Positions 38,156-47,843 of a stretch of DNA of 47,843 nt are shown here, piece by piece (the first letter of the stretch is position 1; every line of letters begins with the position of its first letter). The translations under genes and the position numbers were made by a program. Source of the stretch: Eubacteriales bacterium (GTDB taxonomy: Bacteria > Bacillota > Clostridia > Christensenellales > Aristaeellaceae); NCBI GenBank assembly GCA_028693055.1, contig JAQUWD010000027.1, forward strand, positions 1 through 47,843, read 5' to 3'. The notes below the pieces were generated by a model that had not been told where the DNA came from, ran no database searches, and saw only the letters and a program-made list of their open reading frames with translations.

Positions 38156-38277
38156 GTATTTTATCCGCACGCCTTGCCAAAACCCGCATACCGTGACAGT
38201 GAAGGTTGATGAGGATGGCAAGCGAGAGAGAACCGTACCGCCGCCTTACGACCGACCATTATGAAGGAGGCGTGCCA

Positions 38278-38780
38278 ATGTCATTCTACTCTTATAAGAA
38301 CGCGAACCCCTGTTCTTGCCCCGGTGTGATTTCCGGCAGCGCGCTGGATGGTTTGCAGGAGAAGGTATGCGTGCAGGTAAAGCGCGTATACGACAGCTGC
38401 TTACAGCAGGAGCAGCTGGACGACAAATGCGTCACCATTACCAGCTATGCCATGGTGGCAGGCAATAACTGCGGCTGTAACTGCAATTGCGGCTGCGGAA
38501 CCAGCGGCGGATGCGGTAACGATGCAGCTGAAACCGTTCCTCCCACCTCTGCGCCCGTACCGCCGATCACCTTCGAAAGCTGCCGTTCAACGACTACGGA
38601 AGGAACCATACGAAACCTGACTGTGGAGCGTCTGTGCGACCGCCCCTGCTTTGCCCGCGTGCGCTGCAAGATCGATATGCCGATCGACATTCTCTTTGTG
38701 GACAGCCGCTGCGTAGAGTACATCGGTAAGGGCGTGATCACGGTGGATAATCCTCCCCCTACGCAACGGCAACGCTATAG
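38278..38780 (+). pseudogene. Cys-rich, possibly spore-coat-type protein, 3' end cut by the recombinase element
   Basis: From ATG 38278 (AAGGAGG 8 bases before it) the product starts MSFYSYKNANPCSCPGVISG. It has a Cys/Gly-rich loop CGCNCNCGCGTSGGCG near 65-80, then a beta-rich segment (VERLCDRPCFARVRCKIDMP, SRCVEYIGKGVITV) near 115-160. About residue 158 (base ~38750) the sequence stops looking like this protein. The frame continues only antisense through the serine recombinase gene, to a chance stop at 38928. The 5' part is intact with good start signals, so the gene was cut, not decayed. The missing 3' part is not found elsewhere in the window. A spore-coat role is a guess from composition. 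Confidence 0.72.
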
Positions 38781-40418
38781 CTATTCTTGCATACATTTTT
38801 CTCCAAATAGCTCGACGGTAGCATTTTCGCCGTCCCAAAGGACGCGCTCTATGACGGTTTTGAGTAAACGCCGCTGCTCGTCAAAGTCGAGGGAGACAAT
38901 GGGGTGCTTGAACTCGGCCATAAGCTGACCCATCATGTCCAGCGCGTCGGTTTGCCGCTGGCTGGAGGATAGCTCGCCTTGAATGCGGGTGATATCCTTC
39001 TCCGCGTCGGCAATCTGATCGCCCAAGCGTTCAACCTCGTCAGAGATACCGTGTACCACGGCAGGGGATAGGGATAGATCGGAGAGACGAAGCAACCAGT
39101 CGCGTTGCTGGGCGCGGAGAGAATCAAGAGCGCTTCGTCGCGCATCCAGCTGGGCGGCTAGATCGTCCTTGCGGTGGGTAATTTCCAGCTGATCATTTGC
39201 GGCTCGGTGGGTGAATTCGCCGTTGTTTCCAGCAAGATCGGCTAGATGGGATAGTACCAGCTGATCCACCACCTGTGCGTCAGCGTTACGCATACGGCAG
39301 CGCTGGCTGCGACTGGATGATTTAAGCATGCAGGTATAGGTAATGCCGCGACTGCCGTCCTCCCGGATGCGGGAATGCATTTTTGGGCGCATATAACTGC
39401 TGCAATCGGCGCAGATCAGCAAGCCGGATAGGAGGGCCGTCTTGGTGCGCGGCGCGTGGTAGGCGGAGTCTTTCACCGACTGCATAAGCCGCTGAGCCTG
39501 CACCCAGTCCGCGCCGGAAATAGCGCCCGTATGATGGCCGACGGCAATAATCCAATCCTCCGTTGGACGCAGAACAGCGGAGGGTCTGTCCGAATCGGTG
39601 CGTCCAAAGGGCTGTATACCGTGGGAGCCGTCAAAATCCGCCTCGTTGACGCATAGGTTGTAGTCGCCCGCGCTGAAATAAATCCACGCGTCCCTATCGG
39701 CTGTACAATAGACGGGGTTAAGCAAAATTGCCTTGATGGTGGCGCGGCTGTAGTTCTTGCCAGTGCGGGAGGTAATGCAGTGCTGTAGACAATAAGTCTC
39801 TACCCCAGCGAAGGACTGCTTCTCAAGATACTGGCGAAAGAGGGTGCGGACAATATCCAGCTCCGGCGGGTACTCCACAAGGACGTTGTATTGACGGGAT
39901 TTGCCGCCGCGCTCGAAGGAGACGCGCTCGCTATGATAGCCGGTGGGCGTGGTGCCGCCCAGCCAGCGGCCTTCCTTGGCGAGCATTTGAAGATTGTCCA
40001 CAATGCGCTCGGTGAGGGTGTCCCGCTCCAGCTGCGCAAAGACGGAGGAAATGTAGATCATGGCGCGACCCATGGGCGTGGAGGTGTCAAACTGTTCGCG
40101 GAGAGAAACGAAAGAAATACCAAGGCTGTGAAGCTCGTCCAAGGTGCGGGAAAAATCGGAGACGTTACGGCTGATCCGATCCAGACGATAGCAGCAAAGG
40201 ACGCTGAACTTCCGCTTCCGCGCGTCCGCCATCATGCGCTGAAAGGCAGGACGCTTCACATTACCGCCGGAATAGCCCTCGTCCTCGTCGTAGATGAGGT
40301 AGGAGGGACTATCAAAATGCGTATCGCAATAATCCCGGCAAAGGTCGATCTGTGTTTGCACAGATTCGCCCTTGCCGGTAAAGCGGGATTTGCGGGGGTA
40401 GATGGCTATGGTGGGCAT
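38781..40418 (-). CDS. Large serine recombinase
   Basis: A 545-residue large serine integrase. The resolvase domain has catalytic Ser11 in YPRKSRF, then YRLDRISRN and the helix FAQLERDTLTERI. The Recombinase domain is about 160-290, the zinc ribbon has C336, C339, C363 and C374, and a coiled coil lies at about 405-490. All parts needed for integration are intact. ATG follows AGGAGG. Its stop lies at the edge of the interrupted Cys-rich gene, the usual position of such a gene at one end of its element (attL or attR). By family it should recombine attP with attB, and with a directionality factor reverse this. Confidence 0.93.
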   Translation of the reverse strand: MPTIAIYPRKSRFTGKGESVQTQIDLCRDYCDTHFDSPSYLIYDEDEGYSGGNVKRPAFQRMMADARKRKFSVLCCYRLDRISRNVSDFSRTLDELHSLGISFVSLREQFDTSTPMGRAMIYISSVFAQLERDTLTERIVDNLQMLAKEGRWLGGTTPTGYHSERVSFERGGKSRQYNVLVEYPPELDIVRTLFRQYLEKQSFAGVETYCLQHCITSRTGKNYSRATIKAILLNPVYCTADRDAWIYFSAGDYNLCVNEADFDGSHGIQPFGRTDSDRPSAVLRPTEDWIIAVGHHTGAISGADWVQAQRLMQSVKDSAYHAPRTKTALLSGLLICADCSSYMRPKMHSRIREDGSRGITYTCMLKSSSRSQRCRMRNADAQVVDQLVLSHLADLAGNNGEFTHRAANDQLEITHRKDDLAAQLDARRSALDSLRAQQRDWLLRLSDLSLSPAVVHGISDEVERLGDQIADAEKDITRIQGELSSSQRQTDALDMMGQLMAEFKHPIVSLDFDEQRRLLKTVIERVLWDGENATVELFGEKCMQE

Positions 40419-40518
40419 GGAGCGCCTCCTTCAAAAGAAAATTGATTCGTTTCAAGGCTTTTTGTCCTGCGTCTGCCAATATAGGTATTCGCTGAAAGCT
40501 CTTTCCGAAAAAGAAATA

Positions 40519-40599
40519 TCACTCATCGGCCATTGCGTCTAATTCGTCTATTGTTTTGACAACGACCTTGCCCTGCGCCACCTGTTCAATACTTCTATG
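40519..40599 (-). pseudogene. Antitoxin-type C-terminal remnant
   Basis: Minus-strand codons give RSIEQVAQGKVVVKTIDELD followed by AMADE and a stop. This is typical of the C-terminus of small antitoxin or Phd/RelB-like proteins. Stops lie directly upstream in the same frame, and no toxin gene is adjacent, so only a stub remains. Confidence 0.45.
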
Positions 40600-40963
40600 T
40601 CAACGCCTCTATTTCATTATAAGCAGGAGCGCTTGTTCTGTTAATGGTATTTCCTGTTGTAAAGAAAATGACAAACAATTGTCTTAAAAGATACTTTTGA
40701 TGCTAAAAACGATTATCATTTGCCCATTTCAGCGCAGATACGTTTTAAAAAGGTAGACGGACGGTCAAAGACGGACGTGAGGTATGAACGCAGAGGCGCA
40801 GAATGTCAGCAGCACATTCTTAGACAGTATGACCCGGACGACCCGATGATGGGCATACATACCGCGATATGGCTTATGAGGCGGGATGCCAACTAGCGCC
40901 GCCGGAGGATAGCAACACGGACAACCAGCCGGGCATAGACTTAACAGAGGAGCGTGATAGCAT
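40600..40963. other. Intergenic stretch with a possible gene fragment
   Basis: No full gene is seen. On the plus strand, codons from about 40725 to 40893 give an open stretch (VDGRSKTDVRYERRGAECQQ and HILRQYDPDDPMMG). It has the composition of a real protein but no start signals, and is probably the end of a decayed gene. Confidence 0.3.
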
Positions 40964-41215
40964 ATGGCGCGCAAGAAACAGGAGATCAACGTAATTCTAA
41001 CCTGCTGCGGATATAAGTACCCAAGCTCTGAGTTTTTCTCGGCGGTGGCTCCCACCATGAGGAATTTTAACCGCTATTTATTGGATAAGACAGCTGAGCA
41101 CATGCATGTAACCCAAGAAGGTTATGAGGAATGCTTGGAAGCACTGGACGGTAAGGCGCCATGGGGCATGACGGAGGAAGAACGAGTAGCAGCGCTGGCT
41201 CGGGTACAGAGATAA
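40964..41215 (+). CDS. Small hypothetical protein of the mobile region
   Basis: An 83-residue soluble protein I do not recognise, starting MARKKQEINVILTCCGYKYP, with AGAGGAG upstream. It is charged and probably helical in its second half (DKTAEHMHVTQEGYEECLEAL). Small orphan proteins of this kind are common next to recombinases in phage-like elements. It could be a DNA-binding or accessory (directionality) protein, but nothing proves it. Confidence 0.5.
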   Translation: MARKKQEINVILTCCGYKYPSSEFFSAVAPTMRNFNRYLLDKTAEHMHVTQEGYEECLEALDGKAPWGMTEEERVAALARVQR

Positions 41216-41420
41216 AAACCAAGAAGGGTGTGCGAAACGAACCGAACCACCGAAATGACGCGAAGCGGCATGAATGGCAACGGAGGGAAACGACAGCCCA
41301 GTGGGCTGTTTGCCGGAGACCAAAATGTGCCGAAAACGTGGATTCCCCCAAAGTGTAGACCGAGTACTGAGCATCGAACAGCGCTTTGAAGTGCGCGGCG
41401 TATGGATGCTGTGCAATGAA

Positions 41421-41607
41421 CGGATGCAGCGGCGGCGGGGGAGGAAAAAGTGGATCTGGCGGTAATATGACGCTGAAAAGCGCCACCCAGCAGGGCGCGG
41501 CTAAGGAGCTTGCCAATCTGGTGAACCAAGGGAAGATCAGCAACACACAGGCCGCTCCAATTGCCGCAAACGAAATAGTAAGCAAGAAAAAGGCAAGCAG
41601 CCACTGA
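41421..41607 (+). CDS. Small Gly/Ser-rich then helical hypothetical protein
   Basis: Sixty-one residues from ATG 41421: a Gly/Ser-rich start (GCSGGGGGKSGSGG) and a helical tail (KSATQQGAAKELANLVNQGK, then AAPIAANEIVSKKKASSH). It may be a fragment of a larger structural protein. Ribosome site is weak, and the neighbouring sequence is full of broken frames. Confidence 0.35.
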
Positions 41608-41719
41608 AATAAGACGGCAAGCGGAATGTTTGGCTACACAAGATAGGAGCATAGAAGATGGCTAAAAAGTGAAATACACTACCAAGAATTTCTTGGACAT
41701 GGCGCAGACGGAGCAAAAG

Positions 41720-41751
41720 AACCGCCAGAGCGGAAAAGCGCTTTGGCGGTT
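41720..41751. terminator. Hairpin terminator between the small genes and the broken sugar transporter
   Basis: A 13-bp stem (41720-41732 with 41739-41751; one G-T type mismatch) around GAAAAG. The minus-strand side continues TCTTTTGCT, a weak T-run, so it may end the transporter operon coming from the right. Confidence 0.5.
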
Positions 41752-41861
41752 CAATCAAAATTGAATCCTTGTGAAGATTTTTTTCTTCAATTCTCTCAAA
41801 GTAATGTAATTACTGACAATACAGGCGATATATATCATGAGTCTGCATCATACTGATAGGC

Positions 41862-42706
41862 TCAGCCTTTTATTGCCCCCGAGGTCATTCCCTCCATAAA
41901 ATAGCGCATGGATAAAAAGAAAAACACCAGCAATGGTAAAACGGCAATTGCAAAACCGGCGTACAGCGGTCCATACTGCGGCAGTAAATCGAAGGAGGCC
42001 TTGTATGCCTTAATGCATACGGAAACTGGCCACATCTGGGGTGATTTAAGCGTCAGAGCAGGCCACATGTAATCGTTCCAGTCATTAAGCAGGCGCATTA
42101 CAAACACCGTCACTACAATGGGTTTGGAAAGCGGAAGCGCAATATTGAAATAGATGCGCCCCTCTCTGGCGCCGTCTAGACGTACCGCCTCAAAGATATC
42201 CTCCGGCAATCCTGCAAAGAAATTACGCATCACCAGCACCACAAAGGGAAGACCGTTTGCGATGTTCATCAATGACACAGCAGGGTACGTGTCTAACAGT
42301 CCGAGACGCGCAGTAAGCACATAGCTTGATATCAGCGTAAGCATGCTGGGAATCATCATCATAATCAATATCAGGTAGTACAGCAGATTCTTGCACGGAA
42401 AACGAAGCCGAGCAAACGCATAGGCGGCTACAGAGCCAAGAATCAGCATACTGGGCACGCTGATGAGGCAGATCATGATCGAATTGACAAAGCTGCCGCC
42501 GATATAGCTCCACGCATCCATATAATACTCTCAGTGCAGCTCGTGCGGCAGACCCCAAAAGTTGCTGTAGTACTCCGGGTTGCTTTTCAGTGATGTAATC
42601 AACATAAATATCATTGGGTACAGCATCAGAATCGTCAACAAGGCGAGGCTCAGCCGCACAAATAGCTGTCCGAGTTTGAGCTTATGAATAAGCTTATTTG
42701 CCGTCA
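41862..42706 (-). pseudogene. MalG-type sugar ABC permease, broken by one nonsense codon
   Basis: Reading from ATG 42706 (AGGTGA upstream) gives a normal permease beginning with a first helix (LSLALLTILMLYPMIFMLIT) and reaching WGLPHELH. There a TGA at 42533-42531 interrupts the frame. The same frame continues EYYMDAWSYIGGSFVNSIM and the rest of a carbohydrate permease, with the EAA loop EAVRLDGAREGRIYFNIALP and C-terminal SMRYFMEGMTSGAIKG, to 41862. Total would be about 280 residues, normal for MalG/LacG. A Trp codon TGG changed to TGA by one base would explain it. The 219-residue part after the stop has its own ATG but lacks the first helix. Confidence 0.85.
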
Positions 42707-42718
42707 TCTTCGTTCACC

Positions 42719-43625
42719 TCACGCGTTAAAGTCCGTTTGCGATTTCATGCGATTGCTTAAAATCGTCAACGACAGCACAAGCAGAAACATCACCACGGAA
42801 ATCGCACATGAATAGCCAAAGTTCGAGCTGGAAAAGGCAGATAGATACATGTACAGCGCAGGAGTGTAGGTCGCATAGCCGGGGCCGCCGCTCGTCATAA
42901 CCAAGGGCGCGGTTATGGACTGCAAGCAGGCGATAATCGCCAGTATAATCGCAATCTTAAACTGACTGAGCAAATATGGAATATGGATACGAACCACCTT
43001 GCCCACCGCAGACAGGCCGTCCAACGTGGCGGATTCCAGTACATCCGTCGAGAGCCCCTGTAAGCCTGAAAAAAACAACAGCATGTTGAAGGCGTGTATC
43101 CATGGAAAGTACATTAAAATGAGTGACCATAGCGCTGTGCTGGAATTGCCAAGCCAGTTTGCAGCGTATTGACCCATTCCGACAAGCTCCAGCAAACGGT
43201 TGAGAATTCCTCCATCGCCATCGTAAATCAGCTGCCAGATGAGCTGGTTCACAATCTCCGGCACAACCATCGGTATGGACAACAGCACGCGATACAAATA
43301 TTGGTGACGCTTGCTTTTTATATGGAAGATCAGTTCCGCTGCTAGCAATGGAGGGATGATGCATTGCAGCACATACACAACTGTCCAGATGGATACGTTC
43401 TGTAGCGAACGAAAAAACACACGATCGCTAAACAGCTTTACATAATTACGAAATCCTATCAGAATAGGCGCGTCAAACCCATTCCAGCGCGTGAATGAAT
43501 AATAGAAAGACAGTATGGCTGGGTAATACTTAAATATGAAATATCGCAAGAACAACAATACATGGCATTACCATTGCCAAACCGATGACCGCTTGACCTC
43601 TATATTTTCTAAGCAGACCTTTCAT
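42719..43625 (-). pseudogene. MalF-type sugar ABC permease with an early frameshift
   Basis: The true start is ATG 43625, behind AAAAGGGGGAA. It encodes MKGLLRKYRGQAVIGLAMVM, then PCIVVLAIFHI and a stop near 43532. The family sequence resumes in another frame at about 43545 (FKYYPAILSFYYSFTRWNGF) and runs through to 42719, including the EAA-type loop SATLDGLSAVGKVVRIHIPYL. Thus one extra base or two lost bases near the end of the first helix broke the gene. It is 12 bases upstream of the second permease and 15 bases downstream of the glycosidase fragment. Confidence 0.82.
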
Positions 43626-43640
43626 GAAATTCCCCCTTTT

Positions 43641-44846
43641 CTATTGCTTGTGTAGGTGACAGAGCCTGAGCACAGGCGGTGCGGACAGACCATATGCTAC
43701 GCAATCGTATCGCGAGACCGGGACTGAGCCTCGAGGAGCGACTTGTCGCCATGCGTTGGGCCACGCGCTATTGCGTAGCGGCGCTTCGGTATGGTGCGGG
43801 CCAAACAGATTTCTAAGCGAGCAGCTAAGCTCCAAGACAACCTCGTTCCAGCCCGGGTACATAGGCGCTTCAAACGGAAGCTCCTCTCCGTTATGCGAGA
43901 ATGATTGACCAATCAGCACACCGTTGATATACGCGCTCAACGCCGTACCCGTATAAGCGGGCACACCCAGTAGTCCGCCTTCCATGGCTTCATCCAGCAT
44001 AAAGCGATAACGGTATCGAACCCGTCCGCAGTAGAATGGCAGACCCAGCGCGGTGAGGTCTCCATGTGCCAGCATGCGCGGCCTCTGCACATTCAGCCGC
44101 TCCGGTGAAGCCACTGAGAACTCTCCCAGCAGATACAGCGGGTTCAGCTCGGCTATGATGTCAAAGCGCTCGCATGATAGCGTCGCACGGTTTTCTCCTA
44201 GCGTACACAGCCTAGATATTTCCGCCACATTCAGCTCGCCCAGCCATTTCTCCGGCATAGGATTGTCCGTGTGGCGTCCGTTGATTGACAAGCGGAATAC
44301 GTCGCGTGACTCATAAGCCATCATAAGCTTCTTCGGCAGATAATCGAGGTGAAACCGACAGGTGTAACGCAGGCCCGTGCCCTTGCTAAACTGATTGCGT
44401 CTAATCCATTCATCACGGTACTGGATAGCCATATACCAAGGATTGCTCTCGAAACCGTTAGCGCGATACGCCTCCTCGCACGCATAGGGCGCGTACAAGT
44501 CTCTAAACGCGGTGCCTGCAACCTGTAGCTCACCCATATCCAGCGGAAGTGCGTTGAACTGTAGCGGTTTAATGTCTACGCATTCCAAAGGCATACTCAC
44601 AGCCAGTTCTTTTGGTCGCTGCTGTTTAGACAGTGTCTCCTCTGTCTCCAGCAGCAGCAGCGACTCATTAGGAGACAGGCAGACCCAGCCATCCTCGAAA
44701 AAAGGGGTTGGAGTGAGTAAAGCGTCAAAGGGATCTAGCCTTGCCAGCGTTCTTCCCGTTCGTGCATCGATGTGGACGCACTGCGGCGATTCATTGGCGT
44801 TGCATATAAAATAGACCGTCTCGCCTGCGCTTATCACCCTGCGCAT
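43641..44846 (-). pseudogene. C-terminal part of a large glycoside hydrolase (GH106-like), 5' truncated
   Basis: About 400 residues of C-terminal beta-sandwich domains typical of large Firmicute glycosidases. There is an accessory domain (VYFICNANES, LNVAEISRLCTLGENRATLS) and a galactose-binding-type end with NLFGPHHTEA and YGLSAPPVL. The catalytic barrel expected before this part is absent: coding resemblance begins abruptly near 44846, where the truncated binding-protein gene of the other strand begins. Assignment to GH106 is tentative. It is the first gene before the two permeases on the same strand. Confidence 0.65.
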
Positions 44847-46077
44847 GATGAGCGTCACTGCGTCTGCTGAGAGCAGCAAGGTGGAGCTTACCTTCTGGAC
44901 ACAGGATTCCTCGCAGTACGAAGCGTGGTTTGTAGCTGCAATTGATGCCTACAATGAACAAAGCAATACCGTGAGTATATCTGCGGAATATTTTCCCAAC
45001 TACTCCGATAAGCTGAGCCAAGCCTATGCAGCCGACCAAGAGCCGGATGTGGCGTTCACGTGGCAGGGCATCACCAACTGGGCGAAAGCCGGTAAGATAA
45101 GCGCAGTTCCTGCTGAGCTTGCAGCTTCGATGGAAGAGAACATCTACCCTGGTGCACTGACCAACAAAATGTACAACGGCCAGTATTACGGCATTCCCGC
45201 TGAGATCAATGTGGAAAGTCCTACCTTGTTTGTGAATATGGATTTGCTCTCCTCTCTAGGCGAAACGCTGCAGGAAGGCTGGGTAGAGAACAACGGCCCA
45301 GCCAGCTGGGATGAGCTTGCTGCTTTTGCCGCGAAGCTTACTGAAAAAGATGAATTAGGTGTAAAGCGTTCTGGTCTGTCCTTTGTATACGGCACTTGGG
45401 AAGCGACCTTTGTTTCCCTCATTTGGCAGCTTGGCGGCGACTACCGTGACGAGGCTAACAGCTGCGTGCACTTCAACACCGATGAGGGAAAAGCCGCTTA
45501 TTGCCAAGGCGACGAAGCTATCTCCGACGCAGGCTCTACCCGCTGGGATTTGTTCACACAGGGCAACGCTGTTATGTCCATCGGTGCGCCGTGGAATGCT
45601 GCCAGTCTACTGACCGACGCCCCTGAAATGAACTATCAAGTATTCAATATGCCTGCCTTCATCGAAGGGTCTGATCCCTACTGCGTCGCTACCGGCGGCT
45701 GGGGCTACATTGTGTCGGCCAAGCTTGATGACGCCAAGGCTGCCGCTGCTTGGGATTTTGTAAGCTTCCTCACCTCCAGTGAAATGAGTGGAAGCTGGGC
45801 GCTCGCCACCGGCGCGCTTTCCGCAGACAAAAATGCCAACACTGGCCTCACATTCGACGCAAATGTTGGTTCGGTAGAGAAAGCTATTGCCATCAGCACT
45901 CAGATTCTGCCCTACGGACAGGAGGACGGCGCTTATACGCTGGACGCTTCTCAACTGTTATACACCATTGTTCGTCAGCATCTACGTCAGCTGCTTGAGG
46001 AAGGTGATATCGAGGCCGCGCTGTCAGGCATGGAATACGAAGGCAATGAGATGATCGAAACCAACCTAAGCCGCTGA
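44845..46077 (+). pseudogene. Sugar ABC transporter substrate-binding protein lacking its leader
   Basis: About 410 residues of a family 1 solute-binding protein: VELTFWTQDSSQYEAWFVAAIDAYN, QEPDVAFTWQG, YGIPAEINVESPTLFVN, VMSIGAPWNAAS, ATGGWGYIVSAK. The first residues SVTASAES look like the last part of a signal peptide whose hydrophobic core is gone, and no ribosome site precedes the ATG. So the gene lost its promoter and the leader coding sequence, making export impossible. The region around YCQGDEAISDAGSTRW is shorter than usual, which may be a second small deletion. A terminator follows. Confidence 0.8.
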
Positions 46078-46913: not shown

Positions 46914-47435
46914 ATGGACGAGCAGAAGCTGGAATCCGTTCTTGATACGATACTGACGAAGTTGGGCGGCTTGGAAAAAGGCCAGGCGACGCTGGAAAAG
47001 GGACAGGCGACGCTGGGAAACAGATTCGACAAGCTGGAAGGCAAGGTTGACAATCTTGAAAACAAATTTGACAAGCTGGAAGGCAAGGTTGACAATCTAG
47101 AAAACAAATTTGACAAGCTGGAAGGCAAGGTTGTCAATCTAGAAAACAGATTTGACAAGCTGGAAGGCAAGGTTGACAACCTAGAAAAAGGTCAGTCGGA
47201 AATGGTAGGCAGATTAGATAAACTAGAAGATGGTCAGGCTGGAATGATTGGCAGATTAGACAAACTGGAAGATGGTCAGACTGGAATGATTGGCAGATTA
47301 GACAAACTGGAAGACGGGCAGCTTGCCATCCGCAAGGAACAACTGCGCAGCAGACAGGACATGGCGACTGCACTGAGCATGATTTTTGACATGTATGAAA
47401 ATTCCATTGGAGAGCTTGAAAGAAAAGCAAAATAG
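46914..47435 (+). CDS. Coiled-coil protein built of 14-residue repeats
   Basis: A 173-residue protein behind AAGGGGGATG. Four near-identical units of NRFDKLEGKVDNLE (residues 36-91) are followed by three units of RLDKLEDGQ-x-GMIG (about 100-137), all with heptad spacing, so a long parallel coiled coil is expected. The C-terminus (QDMATALSMIFDMYENSIG) is another helix. No signal peptide. In function it may be a spacer or scaffold in a phage-like element. Repeat copy number is likely to vary. Confidence 0.75.
   Translation: MDEQKLESVLDTILTKLGGLEKGQATLEKGQATLGNRFDKLEGKVDNLENKFDKLEGKVDNLENKFDKLEGKVVNLENRFDKLEGKVDNLEKGQSEMVGRLDKLEDGQAGMIGRLDKLEDGQTGMIGRLDKLEDGQLAIRKEQLRSRQDMATALSMIFDMYENSIGELERKAK
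47019..47324 (+). repeat. 42-bp tandem repeats in two families
   Basis: 47019-47186 holds four 42-bp units (AAATTTGACAAGCTGGAAGG core). 47211-47324 holds nearly three units of the same period with a second core (AGATTAGACAAACTGGAAGA). Period 42 equals 14 codons, so copy-number change keeps the frame. Confidence 0.9.
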
Positions 47436-47749: not shown

Positions 47750-47843
47750 GTACAGCAAACACACTACCAAGTATATGCTTAAGCGAAGCAAAGGCTAAGA
47801 GGGAAGCACGACATCAAAGCCCAAACGTTTCAAGGCAGCGATA

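Follow-up and report, generated by a model that had tools for sequence, protein, structure and literature searches.

Serine recombinase elements split genes of the sporulation programme in several spore-forming bacteria. In Bacillus cereus ATCC10987 the element gin, which consists of non-phage DNA with a serine recombinase, splits the late mother-cell gene gerE; the gene becomes whole again when its parts are rejoined across a short core, and excision has been demonstrated (PMC5595907). SP-beta in spsM of Bacillus subtilis has counterparts in vfbin (spoVFB) and vrin (spoVR) (PMC4191935). The prophage-like element yin, whose excision has been measured, occupies the sigma-K-regulated gene yabG of Clostridium botulinum, with its recombinase beside the 5′ part of the gene (PMC10747680), and skin is a serine recombinase element in sigK of Bacillus and Clostridioides difficile (PMC5025042). 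Here we describe a Cys-rich, predicted spore-coat gene that is split by a recombinase-carrying element; we give a probability of roughly three in four to the reading that this element is excised in the mother cell so that a 272-codon gene is rebuilt.

The window, by which we mean the whole stretch of DNA analysed, is the entire 47,843-base contig C45 of genome G000 (3.83 Mb in 116 contigs, 2.35% contamination), and the right end of the element therefore lies outside it. A Cys/Gly-rich open reading frame begins on the forward strand at position 38278 and matches its orthologues up to residue 157, after which it reads through the antisense of the 3′ end of a recombinase gene, leaving the 157-codon 5′ half of the Cys-rich gene at 38278–38748. 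Across the aligned part this half is approximately 88–93% identical to most orthologues in the genus, which are about 100 residues longer. An initial annotation of this DNA had noted that the gene loses its 3′ end exactly where a serine recombinase gene begins on the opposite strand, and this was confirmed, the break being exact at 38749–38750. The same annotation had allowed for a natural end of the gene near residue 158 and for uninterrupted copies in relatives; no such natural end is present, the intact proteins of the genus running on to 258–281 aa, and uninterrupted copies are common. Among 17 genus genomes, the window's own included, 12 carry the gene in one piece (spanning a 270-aa query completely or almost so), four carry it in two pieces (G000, G005, G007 and G016), and G004 gave a weak partial match and nothing more. 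We found no confident Pfam or NCBIfam family for the gene. A profile built from it retrieved 2746 homologues, and among the 120 matches listed those that bear a name are all called 'hypothetical protein'. The AlphaFold model of the protein, with a mean pLDDT of 69 overall, has a confident all-beta core at approximately residues 29–211, for which we found no known fold.

The only other piece of the gene in its own genome was found on a different contig from the 5′ half, as a match at C93:16153–16500 that covers query residues 154–270 with 96% identity; the 3′ half itself occupies G000:C93:16156–16503. The two junctions have the dinucleotide AA in common, which at attL supplies the first two bases of codon 158 (38749–38750, ..GTGGAT-AA-TCCTCC..) and at attR lies at C93:16156–16157 (..GGGGGC-AA-GGACGT..). 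Joining the flanks at AA yields an in-frame open reading frame of 272 aa with 28 Cys that follows the orthologues along its whole length. The attP site of a large serine recombinase consists of a 2-bp core between palindromic arms. At this locus the element-side arm in attL (38751–38775) is an inverted repeat of the 25 bases that precede the C93 core, matching at 20 of 25 positions; in 20,000 random arm pairs drawn from C45 and C93 the mean score was 6.2 and the maximum 15, so that none reached this value, and the attB arms of the same site agree at 6 of 25 positions. This pairing of the arms indicates that C45 and C93 each hold one end of a single recombined site. The element is thus bounded by an attL and an attR with a shared core and inverted repeats, and rejoining restores the gene. 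Both the 3′ remainder and the short core that had been anticipated at the two ends were recovered, the former on C93, in frame and with the partner att arm, the latter as AA at attL and attR.

It could be objected that C45 and C93 do not belong together and were brought into one genome by an artefact of assembly or binning, in a genome that is fragmented and shows some contamination. This we consider scarcely credible, since neither junction is at a contig edge (the distance to the end is 9 kb on C45, and 10 and 16 kb on C93), the arms on the two contigs are palindromic partners, the reading frame rejoins exactly, and similar splits occur in 14 other genomes. That the break in the Cys-rich gene is the product of site-specific recombination in a sporulation-type gene is well supported by the sequence comparisons.

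The recombinase gene at the attL edge of the element (38781–40418, reverse strand) is intact and encodes 545 aa. Its product has the domains PF00239, PF07508 and PF13408, all above cut-off, as required of a large serine recombinase, and the initial annotation of such a gene at the edge of the element therefore holds. The protein matched the integrase family phrog_95 of PHROGs (3.7e-96), and the closest protein found was 69% identical. Recombination directionality factors vary from element to element (PMC10747680), and none was recognisable among the small open reading frames beside the recombinase. The stretch at 40419–41860 contains only small overlapping open reading frames, with no family among those scanned; they look decayed or unrecognised and may hide a directionality factor.

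A sigma-K-type promoter lies upstream of the Cys-rich gene on the forward strand (38167–38194), with a −35 element GCAC at 38167–38170, a 16-base spacer and a −10 element CATACCGT at 38187–38194. The motif A[CG]-N15-18-CATAnnnT occurs upstream of all 82 gene copies inspected (80 named loci, the window and G005); in 40 rounds of shuffling it occurred in 3.5 copies on average and in no more than 8. Anchored on CATA, the −35 element reads GCAC in 69 of the 82 and agrees in at least three of four letters in 78; of the spacings from 14 to 19 that were tested, 16 was best in 81, and most of the spacer is low in information. The 82 copies are orthologues and hence not independent, so the promoter argument rests on the contrast between motif and spacer. 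GCAC-N16-CATAnnnT follows the sigma-K consensus; sigma-E patterns were found upstream of none of the 82 copies. A TGA-rich block (TGAAGG at 38200–38205 in the window, often TGAACG elsewhere) lies approximately 13–18 bases past the start of the −10 element and is conserved nearly as well as the promoter.

The distribution of the gene also fits a spore gene. Across 60 relatives, the window's genome included, 37 have both the gene and SpoIVA, one has the gene only, nine have SpoIVA only and 13 have neither (p 1.1e-6, uncorrected for kinship), the single gene-only genome being the weak match in G004. In the window's genome we found SpoIVA together with two sigma genes that are strong matches to the SigK/SigE type; the non-sporulating host that the initial annotation had held against its own proposal is not indicated by this gene content, and the uncultured bacterium is likely to form spores. 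The Cys-rich gene resembles a spore gene expressed late in the mother cell under sigma-K control, and we infer a coat or exosporium function for its product. Judged by sequence only, then, the element sits inside the coding region of a mother-cell sporulation gene.

Inside the element, the DNA from 40419 to the end of the contig at 47843 holds, besides the small open reading frames by the recombinase, genes for a sugar-type ABC transporter: two permeases on the reverse strand (41862–42521, PF00528, 4.6e-18; 42719–43558, PF00528, 1e-8) and a solute-binding protein on the forward strand (44845–46077, PF13416, 1.2e-24), with an open reading frame at 43641–44879 for which the scan gave no family. 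The other visible end of the element, inside attR at C93:1–16155, encodes one DUF5107 and one DUF6259 protein, a response regulator paired with a histidine kinase, and a LacI-type sugar-binding regulator, to which inspection by eye added an epimerase, a solute-binding protein and two permeases. The DUF6259 gene has a match in only three of the 17 genus genomes, the window's own included. A fragment of a Mutator-family transposase near the left end of C93 (G000:C93:227–580, L039) is a likely reason why the contigs of the element were left unjoined. In a PHROGs scan of ten proteins from the two visible ends the integrase was the only clear phage function; a repetitive coiled-coil open reading frame at 46914–47435 was discounted as a phage protein, having matched many families including tape-measure and hemolysin.

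We surveyed 308 genomes of the family with a profile search, which found the gene in 152. It is split in 15 of these (approximately 1 in 10), and both pieces were located in 14, G199 being counted on its 5′ half alone. The breaks fall at three positions: site 1, between codons 157 and 158 with core AA (G000 and G005); site 2, in the VCDE-FFSLP region with core GA (G016, G007, G023, G131, G199, G200, G198, G263, G278, G320, G139 and G270); and site 3, near codon 43 (G315). Five of the 80 named loci diverge at site 2 and one ends there, all from the same genomes as in the family survey. Several further candidates were set aside: G197 has a stop or frameshift within one contiguous gene, the pieces in G152 lie at contig edges, G240 and G251 each carry a stop, and G203 (L126) ends at the site-2 core. 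This public contig (L126, 6752–6781) stops no more than 2 bases from that core, an end that fits an assembler meeting both the integrated and the excised form in a mixed population but is no proof of it. An IMG/VR contig, listed there as viral (L128:1626–2654), bears the Cys-rich gene's 5′ half with its break at site 2.

Both junctions were available for 11 site-2 cases, and in ten of them (19/25 in G278) palindromic arms matched at 17–23 of 25 positions around the GA core; no clear attP palindrome was seen at the GA core of G131. The arms of G005 match at 19 of 25 positions around the same AA core as the window's, with different arm sequences. When arms were mixed between six elements (n = 30), 29 pairs scored 4–15 and one scored 20, which we take to be the related G016/G007 pair. 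A large serine recombinase open reading frame adjoins the junction in 13 of the 15 cases (the window, G005, G016, G007 and nine more, that of G023 being truncated); the flanks available for G139 and G199 are short and showed none. The recombinases of G000 and G005 are 57% identical and those of G016 and G007 55%, with approximately 20% between the site-1 and site-2 pairs, and the recombinase gene lies at opposite edges of the element in G000 and G005. By these comparisons at least two independent element arrivals are needed, with recombinases of at least two distant groups. As controls, spoIVA was found in two separated pieces in none of 46 genomes with a match (the match in G032 is cut short where its contig ends, and in G040 there are two copies, both of full length), and znuA gave one near-full-length match in all 17 genus genomes, with extra partial matches in G005 and G006.

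Orientation bears on whether the recombinase removes DNA or merely turns it around. Five cases, all at site 2, have both halves on one contig, without exception in direct orientation, around inserts of 49 kb (G016), 39 kb (G278), 38 kb (G270), 16 kb (G023) and 6 kb (G131). At site 1 the halves are on separate contigs in both G000 and G005, so that a recombinase there might instead invert or rearrange a chromosomal segment and switch the gene without excision. The flanks in G005 lend this some substance: its recombinase and attR adjoin the core fur-znuACB operon (L040:151–5556, L041), and in G013 (L064) znuB lies directly downstream of the intact Cys-rich gene. Simple insertion leaves this arrangement unexplained; it may have arisen by rearrangement or by recombinase-driven inversion. 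Gene order is nonetheless unstable in the genus, so a later rearrangement could explain G005, and the sparse occurrence of the DUF6259 gene inside attR is as expected of an acquired island; with the direct orientation of all five same-contig cases, these points make inversion at site 1 a poor prospect. We infer instead a single excisable element that extends from window position 38751 via further contigs to C93:16155, with the gene halves in direct orientation and excision timed to the mother cell.

The relatives of the window element differ in content. Among 10 scanned of the 14 open reading frames listed for the G023 insert there are genes for phage head, tail and endolysin proteins, and a scan of 10 of the 42 in the G016 insert gave a tape-measure protein along with a helicase of the DnaB type. 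The 6-kb insert of G131 (L079:10678–16945) has four open reading frames of at least 110 aa, for a response regulator, an Hpt protein, a hybrid histidine kinase and the recombinase, and is apparently a very small non-phage intervening element. The G023 recombinase (L155:1559–2446), in a 16-kb phage-like insert, is without its N-terminal catalytic part, and the split there may for that reason be permanent. Median pN/pS was 0.09–0.12 between split halves and intact genes and 0.14–0.17 between intact pairs, which agrees with a working gene but also with a recent split or insertion.

Taken by themselves, the phage-like content of two of the three elements examined and the truncated G023 recombinase would suit ordinary integration into a dispensable gene, in which conserved codons serve as attB, the gene is inactivated, and excision serves only transfer of the element or lysis. 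So would the result that none of the recombinase genes inspected is preceded by a convincing promoter of the sigma-E or sigma-K type. We nevertheless think this explanation unlikely: the split gene has kept its sigma-K-type promoter and two open halves, 15 splits at three positions of one gene stand against none in 46 for spoIVA in the relatives, and a sigma gene in the window's genome is interrupted as well. Known elements in such genes, moreover, are reported to leave during sporulation (PMC5595907, PMC4191935).

The second split in G000 affects a SigK/SigE-type sigma gene (C53:24715–25377, reverse strand), which is broken after ..GISRSYVSR and adjoined by a recombinase gene at C53:23066–24670 (together C53:23066–25377; L002, L204). 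Its tail, VEKHAIELL.., is on another contig (C47:8721–8746, L220). The rebuilt site has a core GT with arms matching at 16 of 25 positions in G000 and 21 of 25 in G006. We read this locus in 12 genus genomes and found the break in five (G000, G002, G006, G007 and G012) and run-through in seven; the tail was found in four of the five broken cases, none being found for G002, and in G007 head and tail lie on one strand of one contig approximately 7 kb apart. The best profile for the sigma gene is TIGR02846, with a score below the model's cut-off. This profile and the skin-like split suggest a tentative assignment as sigK, sigma-E being a close paralogue. The recombinase beside it and that of the window are 21–22% identical.

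From these observations the following course of events may be proposed for the window element, in which excision, its timing and the accessory factor are modelled on the skin, spsM, spoVFB, gerE and yabG systems (PMC4191935, PMC10747680, PMC5595907). The recombinase would have recombined attP with an attB inside the Cys-rich gene. During sporulation the recombinase, with a putative directionality factor, would recombine attL with attR, releasing the element and restoring the gene. The mother cell, which is dying anyway, would lose the element, and the forespore would keep it. If the split sigma gene is sigK, its excision would come first and that in the Cys-rich gene second, and sigma-K would then transcribe the rebuilt gene. 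A broader proposal, to which we give slightly less than even odds, is that the sigma-K gene and its client are two locks on sporulation, split by distant recombinase elements and rebuilt in order, with the germ line retaining a sugar-uptake island that the terminal cell discards. The Cys-rich gene would then be a docking hotspot for the whole family, with three positions open to phages and to islands of non-phage DNA, of which only those that leave in time are tolerated.

The proposal of a removable intervening element in a sporulation-type gene, made in the initial annotation, is supported by the two halves, the shared core, the arms, the promoter and the recurrent splits in the family. Its remark that such a gene was not known as a target agrees with our searches: among the titles and first abstract lines listed from the open PMC literature, subscription papers aside, none dealt with the Cys-rich gene or with the splitting of sporulation genes in this lineage. 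As far as these searches show, the target gene, the host lineage and the repeated use of one target by skin/gin-type elements are new. An apparently unnamed target gene and an uncultured lineage are thereby added to the developmentally excised elements, together with a frequency of 15 in 152 and fixed sites that are re-used by distant recombinases. Why such elements settle in late mother-cell genes becomes testable by comparing sites, recombinases and genes. For spore formers that are known mostly from metagenomes, the locus brings to light a probable protein of the coat or exosporium, and GCAC-N16-CATAnnnT offers a concrete promoter signature for the sigma-K regulon of the lineage.

Compared with the systems described to date, the window element is a candidate, by class, for an element that works like those of the skin/gin type. 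It resembles gin in joining DNA that is apparently non-phage at its visible ends and a serine recombinase within a late mother-cell gene that is restored across a short core (PMC5595907), and differs in having one recombinase seen, a 2-bp core, visible cargo of the sugar-uptake type and an unnamed Cys-rich gene as target; its excision is predicted from sequence, whereas that of gin is demonstrated. The phage-like relatives at site 2 are comparable to SP-beta, vfbin and vrin (PMC4191935), but their target is another gene, and across many species of an uncultured family this one gene is entered at three positions by elements whose recombinases are only distantly related. With yin it shares a clostridial setting, a sigma-K-regulated target and a recombinase that has the same three Pfam domains and lies beside the 5′ part of the gene (PMC10747680), although yin is prophage-like and the visible ends of the window element are not. 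Like skin, it is a serine recombinase element in a sporulation gene (PMC5025042), and the same genome has a split of that kind in a SigK/SigE-type sigma gene; unlike skin, the window element itself occupies a gene other than sigK.
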